Shown here: positions 7,413 to 17,185 of the stretch, piece by piece
How positions within the stretch are numbered: position 1 is the first letter of the stretch
Layout: the number at the start of each line of letters is the position of its first letter
Assembly (NCBI RefSeq): GCF_024345475.1
Contig: NZ_JAGQBE010000008.1
Span: forward strand, 1 to 62,284
Direction of reading: 5' to 3'
Length of the DNA stretch: 62,284 bases
Source: Cyanobium sp. T1B-Tous
Lineage (GTDB): Bacteria > Cyanobacteriota > Cyanobacteriia > PCC-6307 > Cyanobiaceae
Translations under genes and position numbers: made by a program
The notes under the pieces: generated by a model
The model's database searches: none
Told to the model about the DNA's origin: nothing
Seen by the model: only the letters and a program-made list of their open reading frames with translations

Positions 7413-8173
7413 GCCAGTCGGCACCGATCAGCCCGGCCCCCCTGGCGATCCGCGGCGCGGTGGAGCGGGGTTGGGCAGCCTTTGCCCACTGCCCCTGGGT
7501 GCTGATGGGCTTCACCCTGCTCAGCGGTGGCGCCAACCTGCTGGCCCAGCTGCTCTACCGCTACGAGAGCGGCCTGGTGATCTCGCTGCTGGGCCAACCG
7601 GATCCGATCTCGATCGTCTTGGCCGCCATGGCCTGGATCCTCTATGTGCTCACCGGCCTGTGGCTGGTCGTGGGCCTGCTGCGTGGAGCCCAGCTGGCCC
7701 TCCACCGTCGCCGGCCCCAGCTGGGGGAGCTGATCCGGGTGGATGGCCGGGCCATGCTCCGCTGTTTCGGCACCGTGCTGCTGATCCTGGTGGTGCTGGC
7801 CGTGATTGTGCGTCTCGCCCAGGCCAGCTCCTGGCTGCTCACCCTGATCCAGCCGCTGCTCGCCCCGCTGCCGCTGCTGGCGGGCTGGGCCGTCGTCGTG
7901 TATTTCAGCGCTGACCAGATCCTGAGCCTGCCCCTCACCGTGATTGGCGGGCTGGGTCCCCTAGGCGCCTTTCGCCGCGGCCGGGCCGCAACAGACCCCC
8001 ATTGGCTCCATGCCCTGGGACTGACCCTGGTGCTGCTGGGGATGGTTCTGGCCGGCTTCCTGGTGCTGCTGGCGGGCTTGGTGGTGGCCTTGCCTGTGGC
8101 GGCCTGCACCCTGACAGCCGCCTACCAGCAGCTATTCGAACCGGGCGACCCGAGCGGGATCAGCGTCCCCTGA
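7409..8173 (+). CDS. Polytopic membrane protein of unknown function
   Basis: The start is the GTG at 7409, which overlaps the EVE-domain stop by four bases. The 254-residue product has about six hydrophobic segments, e.g. WVLMGFTLLSGGANLLAQLL, WILYVLTGLWLVVGLLRGA, FGTVLLILVVLAVIVRLA, LLAPLPLLAGWAVVVYF and LALGLTLVLLG-like stretches near residues 200-235. Short polar loops include LHRRRPQLGELIRVDGRAML and GAFRRGRAATD. The layout resembles small integral membrane proteins of the DUF975 kind, but I cannot confirm the family. Its last 14 nt overlap the convergent DUF2811 gene. Confidence 0.75.
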   Translation: MSQSAPISPAPLAIRGAVERGWAAFAHCPWVLMGFTLLSGGANLLAQLLYRYESGLVISLLGQPDPISIVLAAMAWILYVLTGLWLVVGLLRGAQLALHRRRPQLGELIRVDGRAMLRCFGTVLLILVVLAVIVRLAQASSWLLTLIQPLLAPLPLLAGWAVVVYFSADQILSLPLTVIGGLGPLGAFRRGRAATDPHWLHALGLTLVLLGMVLAGFLVLLAGLVVALPVAACTLTAAYQQLFEPGDPSGISVP

Positions 8174-8447
8174 AGCTCGCCTGGGCTGGGAAGAGATTGG
8201 CCAGATAGCAGCGGGTGACCTCCCGATTCTTGAGGCCGTTCTGAACCAGAAACCCCGCCAGGGCGGCTTGAAAAAGACGGTATTGATCCCAGTTGGGATG
8301 CTGCTCGATGAACCCGCGCATCGACGCCAGCAGGACCTCCGGCACCTCAGCCTGGAAACTCACCGTGGCCGGATCAACGCCCGTCAAGGGCTGGTCACTG
8401 GCCTGCAATTCCATGGAGGTGGGTTCGAGATGGCACCAGTTCTCCAC
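8160..8447 (-). CDS. DUF2811 protein
   Basis: A 95-residue protein matching the small cyanobacterial DUF2811 family: VSFQAEVPEVLLASMRGFIE, HPNWDQYRLFQAALAGFLVQ and NREVTRCYLANLF. It looks all-helical and soluble. No function is known for the family. The 3' end overlaps the convergent membrane-protein gene by 14 nt. An internal Met at residue 12 is an alternative start. Confidence 0.8.
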   Translation of the reverse strand: MENWCHLEPTSMELQASDQPLTGVDPATVSFQAEVPEVLLASMRGFIEQHPNWDQYRLFQAALAGFLVQNGLKNREVTRCYLANLFPAQASFRGR

Positions 8448-8750: not shown

Positions 8751-9164
8751 TCAGGCGGGACCGTGAGGAGCCGCCCACAGTTGGCCCGCCCCATCGGCAG
8801 ACGCCCCCGGGTCCAGGGCCGCCACCAGGGCTGCGCTGGCCCCAACGCCCCAGCTGCCCTCCACGGCGCGGCTGCCCCCCCCAGCCGGGGTGAGCACAAA
8901 CCGGAGCTCCCAGGCCTGCCGGTCACCCTCGAGCGCCATCCAGAGCGATCCCCGCTCCAGCTCCAGGCTGATCGCCTCCTCGCCCATCAGTTGGTCGGCC
9001 AGCCCCCTGTGCTCCCGCGCCAGCCGGGCCAACCCCTGCTGCAGCTCCCGGGCTTCCTCCGCGGTGAGCTCGACGGCCCAGCCCTGGCCACCCACCAACA
9101 CAGAAAAGGGGTGGCTGGCCGGATCCACCAGCCAACGCCACCCCTCCCCTTCCTGGACCTGCAT
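8751..9164 (-). CDS. DUF1818 protein
   Basis: A 137-residue protein of the cyanobacterial DUF1818 family: EGEGWRWLVDPASHPFSVLV, GGQGWAVELTAEEARELQQG, then a long helix (LARLAREHRGLADQLMGEE), a beta region (ISLELERGSLWMALEGD) and RQAWELRFVL. Function is unknown. It starts 10 nt after the rpoZ stop on the same strand, so it is the second gene of an rpoZ operon. That placement hints at a housekeeping role, but nothing firmer. Confidence 0.85.
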   Translation of the reverse strand: MQVQEGEGWRWLVDPASHPFSVLVGGQGWAVELTAEEARELQQGLARLAREHRGLADQLMGEEAISLELERGSLWMALEGDRQAWELRFVLTPAGGGSRAVEGSWGVGASAALVAALDPGASADGAGQLWAAPHGPA

Positions 9165-9468: not shown

Positions 9469-11049
9469 ATGCGGGGCACCCTGGCCATCGATCTGGGCAG
9501 CAGCACCACGGTGGTGGCCTACCAGGAGGCCGGTGCCGCAGCGCAGCTCCTCGCCCTGCCTCCCTACAGCAGCAGCGAGCCCGTGGTGGTTCCCACCTTG
9601 CTGTGGCTGAGCGATCCCGCCCGATCCAGGCCCCTGATCGGACGCCAGGTGCTGGAGGCGGGCCTGGCCCACACCGAGGGGCCCGAGCTGCACCGCGACT
9701 TCAAACGGCGGATCGGGGCCACCCCCCGGAGTGGGACCCTCCCCCCGGGTCCGGCCCGATCCATCACCCTGCCGCTCAGCCCGGAGCAGGCCGGGGCCCT
9801 GTTGCTGCAACAACTCTGGGCCGCCCTGCCCACGGATCTGGACCCTCAGCGGCTGGTGCTCACGGCCCCGATCGACAGCTACCCCCGTTACCGCCAGTGG
9901 CTGCAGGAGGTGTGCCGCGAGCTGGAGGTGGCGGAACTGGCCCTGGTGGACGAACCCACCGCCGCCGCCATCGGCGCCGGATTGCCCGCCGGCAGCACGG
10001 TGCTGGTGGTGGACCTCGGCGGGGGGACGATCGACCTCTCCCTGGTGGCCCTGGAGGGGGGTGAGGGCCGGCCGGCGCCCATGGCCCAGCTGCTGCGCTT
10101 CGCCGGCCGTGACCTGGGCTCCAGCCGCCAGGCCCTGCGCTGCGCCCGGGTGATTGGCAAGGCTGGGCTCGCCCTGGGGGGCCGGGATTTCGACCGCTGG
10201 ATCGCCGCCCATCTCTGTCCAGAAGCGGCCTTGAGTGGCGATCTGCTGGCCGCTGCCGAAGCCCTCAAGTGCCAACTCAGCAACCAGGAGGAGGCTCTGG
10301 TGCTCTGGAGCCCCCCTGGGTCAGGCCTCCCCCCCCAGGCCCTGCGGCTGAACCGGAGCGACCTCGAGGCCCTGCTGCGGGAACGGGGCCTGGTGGCCCA
10401 GCTGGATGGATTGCTCGAGGAAGTGCTGGCCGCCGCCCGCCGCGAGGGGCTGGCCCTGAAACAGATCACAGCGGTGCTGCCGGTGGGGGGCAGCAGCCGA
10501 CTCCCCCTGATTCGCCAGTGGCTGGCCGAACGCTGCAGCGGGATTCCCCTGCGCCACGAGCGGCCGGTGGAGGCCGTGGCCCTCGGCGCCCTGGCCCTCA
10601 CCCCCGGCGTCCAGGTGCGCGACATCCTGCGCCATGGGGTGTCGCTGCGCTGCTGGGACCAGCGCTCGGGCCGTCACCACTGGCAGGCCGTGTTTGTGGC
10701 CGGCCAGACCTGGCCCAGCGACCGTCCCCTGGAGGTGGTGCTGGCCTGCAGCAGCCCTGACCAGCGGTCCCTGGAGCTGGTGCTCGGGGAACCGGACAAC
10801 GAACAGCGCAGCGAAGTGGTGTTTGAGGGTGGCTTGCCGGTGCTGCGGCCACGGCCCGCCGGCGAGGGCCGCGTCCAGCCCTGGAGTCAGCAGCCCCCGG
10901 CCCTGCTCCTGGAAACGCCGGGCCAGCCCGGTGAGGATTGCCTGCGCCTGGCCTTCGAGATCGATCCCCAGGGCCAGCTCCTGCTGGAGGTCACCGACCT
11001 GCGCAGCGGCCAACGCACCCCGCCGCGGGCGCTGGGCCCGGTGCGCTGA
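9469..11049 (+). CDS. Hsp70-like chaperone without C-terminal lid
   Basis: The 526-residue product has an intact Hsp70 nucleotide-binding domain: phosphate-1 AIDLGSSTTVVAY, the catalytic Lys in DFKRRIGA, DEPTAAAIGAG, phosphate-2 VLVVDLGGGTIDLSLV and adenosine motif VLPVGGSSRLPLIRQW. After about residue 375 comes a short beta-rich substrate-binding region (DILRHGVSLRCWD, VFVAGQTWPSDRPLEVVL, LELVLGEPDNEQ). The sequence ends about 100 residues short of DnaK, without the helical lid or EEVD-like tail. ATPase activity is likely; a full DnaK cycle with lid closure is not. It sits 117 nt before a membrane-anchored protein on the same strand, a possible partner. Confidence 0.9.
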   Translation: MRGTLAIDLGSSTTVVAYQEAGAAAQLLALPPYSSSEPVVVPTLLWLSDPARSRPLIGRQVLEAGLAHTEGPELHRDFKRRIGATPRSGTLPPGPARSITLPLSPEQAGALLLQQLWAALPTDLDPQRLVLTAPIDSYPRYRQWLQEVCRELEVAELALVDEPTAAAIGAGLPAGSTVLVVDLGGGTIDLSLVALEGGEGRPAPMAQLLRFAGRDLGSSRQALRCARVIGKAGLALGGRDFDRWIAAHLCPEAALSGDLLAAAEALKCQLSNQEEALVLWSPPGSGLPPQALRLNRSDLEALLRERGLVAQLDGLLEEVLAAARREGLALKQITAVLPVGGSSRLPLIRQWLAERCSGIPLRHERPVEAVALGALALTPGVQVRDILRHGVSLRCWDQRSGRHHWQAVFVAGQTWPSDRPLEVVLACSSPDQRSLELVLGEPDNEQRSEVVFEGGLPVLRPRPAGEGRVQPWSQQPPALLLETPGQPGEDCLRLAFEIDPQGQLLLEVTDLRSGQRTPPRALGPVR

Positions 11050-11166
11050 GCCCAGCGCCCGGGGCGCGGGACCGCCAAGGACAGTGGACGCCGGAGCCGC
11101 TGCCCCCTGCCAAGGGCGGCGGGGCCCCCAGCCCCATAAAACGGGGAGACTTGCCCTCCTCTCGCC

Positions 11167-11994
11167 TTGGCCCTGCGCCGCCACAGGCTGCCCCGTTTCT
11201 GGCTGGGCCTCACCCTGGGCCTGGTGGCCTCCGGCCTCGGGGCGGCCTACTGGTGGGAGCAACAACTGCCCCAACGGCTGGAGCAGGCGGCCAGGAGCGG
11301 GGATCTGCAGGCCTGCCTTCGCTACAGCGAACAGCTGGAAGCCCTGCGCTGGCTGGGAGGGCAGGCACCGGCGGAACAGGGAAGCTGCCGGCGGCGCCAG
11401 GCGGCCCGCCTCTGGCAGCAACAGCAGTGGGCCGCGGCCCTGCAACTGCAACTGCAACTTGTGAACTCCCAGGCCGGCAGTCCGGCCGACCGCGACCAGC
11501 TAAACCGCTGGCAGCAGTCCCTGCAACAGCGAGCCCTGAGCCGCTTTCAGGACGGCGACCTCCAGGCCGCTCTGGCACTCCTGGCCGTGATGGGGGACGA
11601 CCGACGGGCCGATGGCAACAGCCTGGGGGACAAATTCCGAGAAAACTGGACCCGCAACCGACTCCAGTTCGAGCGGGCCAAGGCCCTGGGTGATCAACGG
11701 CGGTGGTGGGAAGCCCTCGATGCCCTCACCCGCATCGACCATCCCTGGTGGAAAACCCACAGCCGGGCGCTACAGGCCACGGTGCAGAAGGGCATTGAAG
11801 GCCTGGCAGGACAGGAGCGTGAACACGACGCCCACGGGCAGCTGCCCCACACCGTGCCCACCGACCAACTCGACGCCCAGGTGCAGCTGAGGATCGCCAA
11901 GGGCATGAACGAATGGGCGGCCTTCCAGGACGCCTGCCGGGCCCTCGGCGGGACAGTGGTGGAGGCCGGGCCGGAGACAGCCTGTCAGCGCTGA
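11167..11994 (+). CDS. Membrane-anchored protein with helical repeat-like ectodomain, unknown function
   Basis: From a TTG at 11167 the product is 275 residues. A basic N-terminus (ALRRHRLPR) leads into one hydrophobic helix at about 12-30 (FWLGLTLGLVASGLGAAYWW). The rest is Gln/Leu/Ala-rich helix that could be a solenoid of TPR type (RLEQAARSGDLQACLRYSEQ, FQDGDLQAALALLAVMGDD, DQRRWWEALDALTRID). No named domain is recognised. The ectodomain contains Cys in QACLR, GSCRR, DACRA and TACQR. The TTG start is uncertain, but the reading frame is clear. Position directly after the lidless Hsp70 suggests the two act together. Confidence 0.7.
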   Translation: MALRRHRLPRFWLGLTLGLVASGLGAAYWWEQQLPQRLEQAARSGDLQACLRYSEQLEALRWLGGQAPAEQGSCRRRQAARLWQQQQWAAALQLQLQLVNSQAGSPADRDQLNRWQQSLQQRALSRFQDGDLQAALALLAVMGDDRRADGNSLGDKFRENWTRNRLQFERAKALGDQRRWWEALDALTRIDHPWWKTHSRALQATVQKGIEGLAGQEREHDAHGQLPHTVPTDQLDAQVQLRIAKGMNEWAAFQDACRALGGTVVEAGPETACQR

Positions 11995-12061: not shown

Positions 12062-12280
12062 ATGCAGCCAGGTGATCAGGTCAAGGTCTCCCAGAGCGTG
12101 GTCGTCTACCACCATCCCCAGCACCGCGGCGAAGCCTTCGACCTCCAGGGCCAGCAGGGCGAAGTGGTGACCGTCCTCAACGAGTGGAAAGGTCGGGTGA
12201 TCAGCCCAACCCTGCCGGTGATCGTGGCTTTTGGGAAATTTCGCGCCCACTTCCGCGGCGACGAACTCGAGCCCGCCTAA
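12062..12280 (+). CDS. ftrV: Ferredoxin-thioredoxin reductase variable chain
   Basis: This 72-residue protein is the variable (alpha) subunit of ferredoxin:thioredoxin reductase, which passes electrons from ferredoxin to thioredoxin in the light. It is an SH3-like barrel with no cluster of its own. Family motifs are VKVSQSVVVYHHPQHRGEAF, DLQGQQGEVVTVL and KFRAHFRGDELE. The catalytic chain (ftrC) is not in the window. Its stop codon overlaps the convergent pyrR stop by four bases. Confidence 0.93.
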   Translation: MQPGDQVKVSQSVVVYHHPQHRGEAFDLQGQQGEVVTVLNEWKGRVISPTLPVIVAFGKFRAHFRGDELEPA

Positions 12281-12813
12281 GGCTCGGGTCGCAGCAAATA
12301 GACCCCTTCCTCGCCGTCGATGGCCTGGAGACAGAGCTGGATCGACTCCTGACGGCGGGTGGGCACCACGCGGCCGCAGAAATCGGGCTGAATCGGCAAC
12401 TCCCGATGGCCCCGATCCACCATGGCCAACAGACTCACCCGCTTGGGCCGCCCCCAGGCCTGCAGGGCCTCTAAGGCCGCTCGCACGGTGCGCCCGGTGA
12501 AGATCACGTCGTCCACCAGCACCACCTGACGTCCATCCAGGGCCACAGGCAGGTCGGTGGGTTGGCCCAGGCGGGTGCCCACCCGTTCCAGATCATCACG
12601 GTGAAAGGTGGGATCCACCGTGCCCTGGTCAATCGGATGACCCGTCATCGCCGCCAGCCGCTGGGCCAGGACCTCAGCCAGCGCCACGCCCCGGGTCGGG
12701 ATGCCGAGCAGCACCAGGGAGCGGCTGTCGAGGGCACTTTCCAGCACCTGGGAGGCCAGGCGATCGAGGGTGCGGCCGAGATCCAACGCGGAGAGCAATT
12801 CCAGCCGGTGCAT
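12277..12813 (-). CDS. pyrR: PyrR bifunctional pyrimidine regulator / uracil phosphoribosyltransferase
   Basis: From the ATG at 12813 (MHRLELLSALDLGRTLDRL) the product is 178 residues, the normal PyrR length. It has the phosphoribosyltransferase PRPP loop VVLVDDVIFTGRTVRAALEA, the dimer region LVLLGIPTRGVALAEVLAQR, and the C-terminal PyrR motif LLAMVDRGHRELPIQPDF followed by VGR-equivalent CGRVVPT. PyrR converts uracil and PRPP to UMP, and in many bacteria binds pyr mRNA. No pyr genes or PyrR-binding RNA are visible nearby, so enzymatic salvage is the safer call. The frame is open upstream to 12894 without family similarity. Confidence 0.93.
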   Translation of the reverse strand: MHRLELLSALDLGRTLDRLASQVLESALDSRSLVLLGIPTRGVALAEVLAQRLAAMTGHPIDQGTVDPTFHRDDLERVGTRLGQPTDLPVALDGRQVVLVDDVIFTGRTVRAALEALQAWGRPKRVSLLAMVDRGHRELPIQPDFCGRVVPTRRQESIQLCLQAIDGEEGVYLLRPEP

Positions 12814-12973
12814 CAGGACAGCCACGGATAAAGAGCCCCGGCGAATTGGCCTTGGACCATCAGTGTGGCCAAAGCCTGACCCGGCCGGGATCAAGCGGGA
12901 TCACCGCACATCCGCACTGTAGGTTGGGCTTGGAAGGCGTTGATTCAACGTCGCTAGGCGAATCGGTCGCTAG

Positions 12974-15496: not shown

Positions 15497-17185
<1,689 letters not shown>

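Follow-up and report, generated by a model that had tools for sequence, protein, structure and literature searches.

The lidless Hsp70-like protein P1 of Cyanobium sp. T1B-Tous, judged by its sequence, is a member of the Hsp70 superfamily but not a canonical DnaK, and it represents the picocyanobacteria in a pan-cyanobacterial class of non-canonical Hsp70s that is near universal in the sampled Cyanobacteriia. Its gene lies in a stretch of 62,284 nucleotides (contig NZ_JAGQBE010000008.1; this whole stretch is called the window here), directly ahead of the gene for a membrane protein, P2. Both proteins are conserved across many genomes and are thus not chance open reading frames. The best overall explanation that we can offer, which we consider evenly balanced between right and wrong, is that P1 is a non-canonical Hsp70 resembling fungal Ssz1, that it perhaps serves photosynthetic membranes, and that P2 stands outside its core mechanism.

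An earlier note on the window had described P1 as keeping all nucleotide-binding motifs while stopping short of the alpha-helical lid, and as something other than a general DnaK, and these points are borne out by the comparisons made here. P1 matches the Pfam Hsp70 family (PF00012) with 70.1 bits, where the cut-off is 20.6. In an alignment of P1 and 30 relatives (31 rows), set against the DnaKs of the window's own genome, the residues equivalent to D8, K70, E171, D194, G196, T199 and D201 of DnaK are kept in every row. The last residue of P1 aligns with residue 500 of the 635 in a DnaK of the same genome, which is where the beta substrate-binding domain ends and before the lid begins. Against the NCBIfam DnaK equivalog the score is 59.5 bits, below the cut-off of 822.55, and the P1 branch is separate from DnaK in a tree. 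The window genome also encodes two longer DnaK-type Hsp70s (635 and 706 amino acids), together with an MreB-like protein that was named by eye.

The linker and the putative J-protein contacts of DnaK have changed as well. The hydrophobic LLLD linker is lost, with positions L391, L392 and D393 all replaced in 31 of 31 rows; among these three positions, the second DnaK of the window genome departs from LLLD at L392 only. Arg167 and Asn170 of DnaK are residues that we take to be contacts for J-proteins. Asn170 is replaced by Asp in all 31 rows, namely 11 of 11 from the own family (here and below, the taxonomic family of the window genome, of which 151 genomes were sampled) and 20 of 20 others. 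Arg167 is replaced by Ala in the 11 own-family rows, and Arg is kept in 16 of the 20 rows from elsewhere. The combination of Ala at 167 and Asp at 170 recurs in 39 of 39 own-family loci (L006-L044, a set in which some genomes are entered twice).

Structural comparisons are consistent with a DnaK-like plan that ends early. The predicted model of P1 has no helix past residue 386, in a weak model (predicted local distance difference test score, pLDDT, 51.8) whose poor quality is probably explained by the nine close sequences only that went into it. Foldseek places the model near end-to-end on DnaK structures, lid-deleted ones included, and on chain 7x3k_B of the ribosome-associated complex (RAC), with low template modelling scores of ~0.4. 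When the P1 profile was compared with DnaK structures, the nucleotide-binding domain aligned with a best E of 8.4e-41, and the beta domain aligned weakly but in order. The most hydrophobic stretch of P1 is the phosphate-binding strand motif and not a membrane segment. No lidless cyanobacterial Hsp70 is described in the titles and abstract openings that were searched in the open-licence literature. The accessible part of one paper gives three DnaK copies for most marine Synechococcus (PMC7522525), and a paper on DnaK duplication deals, in its accessible part, with DnaK (PMC11019930).

Matches far exceeding those at the DnaK level place P1 in 141 of the 151 own-family genomes, and the ten genomes without it are all less than 90% complete. 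In a draw of 194 genomes from the phylum, P1 was found at E < 1e-40 in 86 of 89 Cyanobacteriia, a number that includes the window genome, and P1 or a paralogue was found in three of the 105 genomes from outside the Cyanobacteriia. P1 is also present in 116 of 118 genomes of family f7 and in 42 of 50 of family f6; these two counts and the 86 of 89 were made by eye at the same limit, in overlapping draws. The closest named relative among the matches is Cyanobium sp. FACHB-13342, whose P1 is 94% identical. A tree of 51 rows sets the own family on a long branch (1.57), resolves two paralogue groups and gives the copies from genomes G176 and G194 a separate branch. Left out of it were L095-L102 (second copies of included genomes, plus L095, L097 and L098 from three f1 genomes that are not otherwise shown), L126, whose gene is that of L140, and L130, an Hsp70-like protein of greater length.

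The two paralogue groups (L119, L123, L124 and L127 in one; L125, L128, L129 and L140 in the other) are further Hsp70s of lidless length. They measure 510-560 amino acids, are ~28-34% identical to P1, and occur in some cyanobacteria and in G166. The P1 copies of G176 and G194 (L118 and L138) come from two genera of one family outside the Cyanobacteriia, and could reflect ancient inheritance, transfer or contamination.

The genomes that have lost P1 offer a clue to what it may do. Ten Cyanobacteriia genomes outside the own family are without P1, and seven of these have no intact gene of the D1/D2 family (PF00124) of photosystem II (PSII); a PF00124 gene is present in seven of seven controls that hold P1. 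A search for PsaA and PsaB indicates that photosystem I is kept in three of the seven (G333, G334 and G338) and is lost or in fragments in the others (G292, G322, G367 and G368). In G292, G322 and G367, many stops mark P1 as a pseudogene, its flanking gene is free of stops at 83-86% identity, and the DnaK frames elsewhere in the genome are open. Because P1 is lost or decayed in PSII-less symbionts and kept in small Prochlorococcus-like genomes, we tentatively tie it to photosynthetic or thylakoid proteostasis. The pattern points to a task that becomes dispensable when photosynthesis goes.

Several observations weigh against this explanation. The seven losses come from a small number of symbiont-like lineages in which genome reduction is a confounder, G338 is only 78% complete, and the Calvin cycle is also incomplete in spheroid bodies, as stated in the accessible part of one report (PMC5638926). 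PSII is kept and P1 is absent in G201 (one contig, 99% complete), G406 and G348 (draft, 91%), and in the reverse case P1 is present, with no PF00124 match, in G176 and G194 (contamination 3 and 7%). P1 is thus not required in all PSII-bearing cells, nor is it restricted to them; these genomes rule out PSII as its strict partner, and the association stays a tendency. The copy in G317 (L119), which is counted among the 86 and also among the seven PSII controls, falls in a paralogue clade. With regard to the protein itself, the alignment of the P1 beta domain to DnaK is insignificant when taken alone and is collinear only, the model has the low pLDDT given above, and one linker position and the A429 position of the arch are also changed in the second DnaK of the window genome. 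G201 is a single contig of 3.8 Mb with ten PF00124 matches and no P1, and G381, from the same genus, has P1.

It is possible, if doubtful, that P1 serves general proteostasis under light and oxidative stress, and that its loss in symbionts reflects a sheltered life and genome reduction and has no bearing on a photosystem task. The exceptions above would suit such a role, as P1 is absent in one single-contig genome that bears PSII and present in two that have no PF00124 match. In Synechocystis, the orthologue of P1 is presumably the DnaK-like gene slr0086. That gene is up under H2O2 and under ethanol, according to the accessible parts of two studies (PMC7889975, PMC3564720). A general stress role is harder to reconcile with the decay of P1 in symbionts whose DnaKs stay intact, or with the retention of P1 by the small genomes of a clade that is without P2.

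If P1 is a non-canonical, Ssz1-like Hsp70, as we prefer, it retains the residues checked for ATP binding and catalysis, and the usual trap cycle, in which a J-protein stimulates closing of the lid, would be impossible. P1 would then bind ATP and hold its clients, or a fixed partner, with fast exchange and low affinity, like fungal Ssz1. More tentatively, this work may serve photosynthetic or thylakoid proteostasis. Hydrolysis of ATP by P1, its binding of clients and its independence of J-proteins are predicted properties.

Alternatively, P1 could be a nucleotide-switched scaffold and not a chaperone, such that ATP binding changes its shape and the beta domain binds no peptides. We consider this unlikely. 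The losses of linker, lid and J contacts are compatible with a scaffold, as are two changes in the substrate arch, where Trp replaces M404 in 29 of 31 rows and Ser replaces A429 in 28 of 31, although the alignment is weak around both columns and Ser is also found at the A429 position in one DnaK of the window genome. However, the beta domain holds positions that are invariant across the 31 rows and is therefore under selection, and Ssz1 binds nascent chains despite similar losses, according to the accessible part of PMC7083937.

P2 was found in 80 of the 151 own-family genomes, compared with the 141 that have P1. It lies directly downstream of P1 on the same strand in all 80, with 14-182 bp between the matched ends, and from this distance the two genes are probably carried on one transcript in the own family. 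Within the gap we found no promoter-like site, and the terminator-like sites are all on the opposite strand. A structured element between the genes was rejected, since shuffled sequences fold equally well as RNA (z -0.27). The other genes of the block also keep their order in the own family, and because the entire block is conserved in this way, adjacency is weak evidence of joint function.

Where P2 is missing from own-family loci, P1 keeps its position, with the phosphoribosyltransferase gene immediately after it in 15 of 15 loci examined. These loci form one clade in the tree, so that a single loss of P2 is likely, and we infer this clade to be Prochlorococcus-like, with small genomes. P1 is under similar purifying selection in both settings: the ratio of nonsynonymous to synonymous rates (dN/dS, omega) is 0.10-0.21 without P2 (four pairs) and 0.14-0.16 with P2 (two pairs), where six of seven pairs gave values and dS exceeded 1 in two. 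Outside the own family, 20 P1 loci have no conserved neighbor in common, the recurrent clusters being mostly antisense frames over P1 or unrelated, and a conserved genomic partner there was rejected on these 20 loci.

Full-length homologues of P2 were detected by its profile in both sampled genomes of another order (G186 and G469; 135 and 131 bits). The homologue in G186 is ~890 kb from P1, and no P1 was found inside the ~1.5 kb flanks of the homologue in G469. The earlier note would take its reading as refuted if the two genes were not neighbors in related genomes; they are neighbors in every own-family genome in which P2 was found, and outside the family they are not. Its central proposal of a dedicated two-protein membrane device is mostly unsupported, given a P1 that is near universal and kept under selection without P2, a P2 that lies apart from P1 in another order, and a P2 domain that is likely to be outside the cytosol. 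P2 instead appears to be an optional, separate protein that is not part of the core mechanism of P1. In G186 and G469, which seem to be S. elongatus-like, the P2 homologue has an RTX-type gene on one side and, on the other, a PP2C-type phosphatase gene that starts ~55-66 bp after it (L149:3602-6343; L151), the Pfam names for RTX and PP2C being those checked in G186.

As for P2 itself, the view that it is a single-pass protein with a helical, Cys-containing domain is upheld, and this domain may have a fold like that of tetratricopeptide repeat (TPR) proteins. The tail ahead of its hydrophobic stretch (residues 11-29) has four basic residues and no acidic ones, and is basic and free of acidic residues in all 28 own-family rows of alignment A2, which were chosen from 78 P2 loci. 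The model (pLDDT 82.9) is helical from residue 11 to 259 and ends in a short strand pair. Its structural matches are TPR-like, mainly over residues 26-120, with a best Z of 8.8 that possibly reflects just a common repeat arrangement and a best Foldseek E of 0.011; the Foldseek and VIA matches are weak. Pfam gives no TPR match up to E 1, on which ground an ordinary TPR protein was rejected, and no kinase-domain match. P2 has exactly four cysteines (50, 74, 257 and 273), all of which are kept in 28 of 28 own-family rows and in one distant homologue, and an extra cysteine lies in the membrane stretch in four of the 28.

The next matches of the P2 profile after the full-length homologues fall behind the kinase domain in two cyanobacterial Ser/Thr kinases (L135 and L136; E 1.7e-18 and 1.9e-16), and further matches are weaker (E 1e-8 to 1e-3) and mostly to longer proteins. 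By hhalign, P2 aligns with these kinase regions at E 6.1e-12, with Cys50 and Cys74 opposite cysteines. The kinases thus share with P2 a transmembrane segment, a helical region and the first cysteine pair, whereas P2 has no kinase domain and has an added C-terminal module with the second pair. Because its kin are post-membrane kinase regions, and given the charge pattern around its membrane stretch, the helical domain of P2 is probably outside the cytosol, on the other side of the membrane from P1. P2 would then be oriented N-in, C-out, its two disulfides lying in the periplasm or the thylakoid lumen, and the domain is probably disulfide-stabilized. The fusion of the P2 domain to Ser/Thr kinases elsewhere and the PP2C neighbor make a repeated link to Ser/Thr phospho-signaling.

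A more intimate role for P2 would be that of a membrane anchor for P1, with its conserved tail RHRLPRFW lying in the lidless groove as a built-in pseudo-substrate, like the LP motif of Zuo1 in Ssz1. We judge this quite improbable. P2 does follow P1 directly in 80 of 80 cases, and the tail is among the best conserved parts of P2, with a mean entropy of 0.57 over the first 13 residues versus 1.37 for the entire protein and with nine-residue windows starting at 1, 2 and 4 ranking second, third and sixth of 267 in conservation. Leu-Pro occurs within the first 16 residues in 25 of the 28 rows, and a distant P2 homologue that does not adjoin P1 has a different tail. The lidless domain of Ssz1 binds the LP motif of Zuo1, as described in the accessible part of PMC7083937. 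Nevertheless, selection maintains P1 where P2 is missing, other genes of the block also hold their order, and membrane insertion alone calls for a basic tail. Moreover, L024, L087 and L088 all adjoin P1 and are without Leu-Pro; for L087 and L088 the alignment begins late in the protein, but a separate reading of the L088 tail also shows no Leu-Pro. It is highly improbable that the pair forms a membrane-tied counterpart of Zuo1-Ssz1, in which the groove of a J-free lidless Hsp70 is filled by the Leu-Pro tail of P2 and the state of the envelope or thylakoid lumen gates the chaperone via a kinase-type sensor domain outside the cytosol, an arrangement that would have arisen in picocyanobacteria atop an older stand-alone P1 linked to oxygenic photosynthesis, and been lost again in the Prochlorococcus-like clade. 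The three alternatives set out above (stress role, scaffold and anchor) are not mutually exclusive.

Table 1. Positions in the window of P1, P2, their parts and the adjoining genes.
Feature	Position	Strand	Basis
P1, lidless Hsp70-like protein, 526 amino acids, ATG start	9469..11049	+	Open reading frame, Pfam, profile searches, alignment
P1 nucleotide-binding domain, ~residues 1-382, catalytic residues kept	9469..10614	+	Profile match, alignment
P1 interdomain linker region, residues 383-391, VRDILRHGV; hydrophobic LLLD of DnaK lost	10615..10641	+	Alignment
P1 C-terminal strand-only domain, residues 392-526, collinear with DnaK beta substrate-binding domain, no lid	10642..11046	+	Model, profile, Foldseek, alignment
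P2, single-pass membrane protein, 275 amino acids, TTG start	11167..11994	+	Open reading frame, profile search, alignment
P2 cytosolic tail LALRRHRLPRFWL (in the cell its first residue is M), among the most conserved stretches of P2	11167..11205	+	Conservation
P2 transmembrane stretch, residues 11-29	11197..11253	+	Hydropathy, model
P2 helical TPR-like domain, residues 30-214, kin to the region after the membrane segment in Ser/Thr kinases, with Cys50 and Cys74	11254..11808	+	Profiles, model
P2 C-terminal module, residues 232-275, with Cys257 and Cys273	11860..11991	+	Model, alignment
Upstream neighbor, RNA polymerase omega/Rpb6 family (PF01192), 76 amino acids	9175..9405	-	Pfam
Downstream neighbor, ferredoxin-thioredoxin reductase variable chain (PF02941)	12062..12280	+	Pfam
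Next neighbor, phosphoribosyltransferase (PF00156); directly after P1 in P2-less own-family loci examined	12277..12894	-	Pfam

The same conserved block (Table 1) includes genes for DUF2811 and DUF1818 proteins at 8160-8447 and 8751-9164, both on the minus strand. A groEL-like gene, named by eye, lies at 15497-17131 on the minus strand, so that two chaperone genes of different families occur within 8 kb.

P1 resembles DnaK in its homologous nucleotide-binding domain, its catalytic residues and its collinear beta domain, and differs from it in having no lid, no LLLD linker, altered J contacts and a separate branch in the tree. The closer likeness is to Ssz1 (Pdr13) of the fungal ribosome-associated complex, which has a nucleotide-binding domain, a complete beta domain, no alpha lid and a non-canonical linker; on the P1 side, the evidence for the beta domain in this comparison is a collinear alignment and a weak model. 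Ssz1 is eukaryotic and is bound to the J-protein Zuo1 and the ribosome, and is said to bind ATP and not hydrolyze it, in the accessible part of PMC7083937. In contrast, P1 has its catalytic residues intact and no conserved neighbor in the 20 loci from outside the own family, and the lidless form is likened to Ssz1 by architecture. P1 thus appears to be an Ssz1-like lidless Hsp70 that is spread across cyanobacteria, and a variant of the known Hsp70 plan.

To our knowledge, fungal Ssz1 is the best comparison for an Hsp70 that works free of a lid and probably of J-protein control. If our explanation is true, P1 would be a natural bacterial Hsp70 that works lid-free and probably without J-protein control. 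Near-universal in its distribution, and a pseudogene in symbionts that are without photosynthesis and have intact DnaKs, P1 offers a concrete candidate for a photosynthetic-membrane chaperone, and one whose gene is easy to delete.

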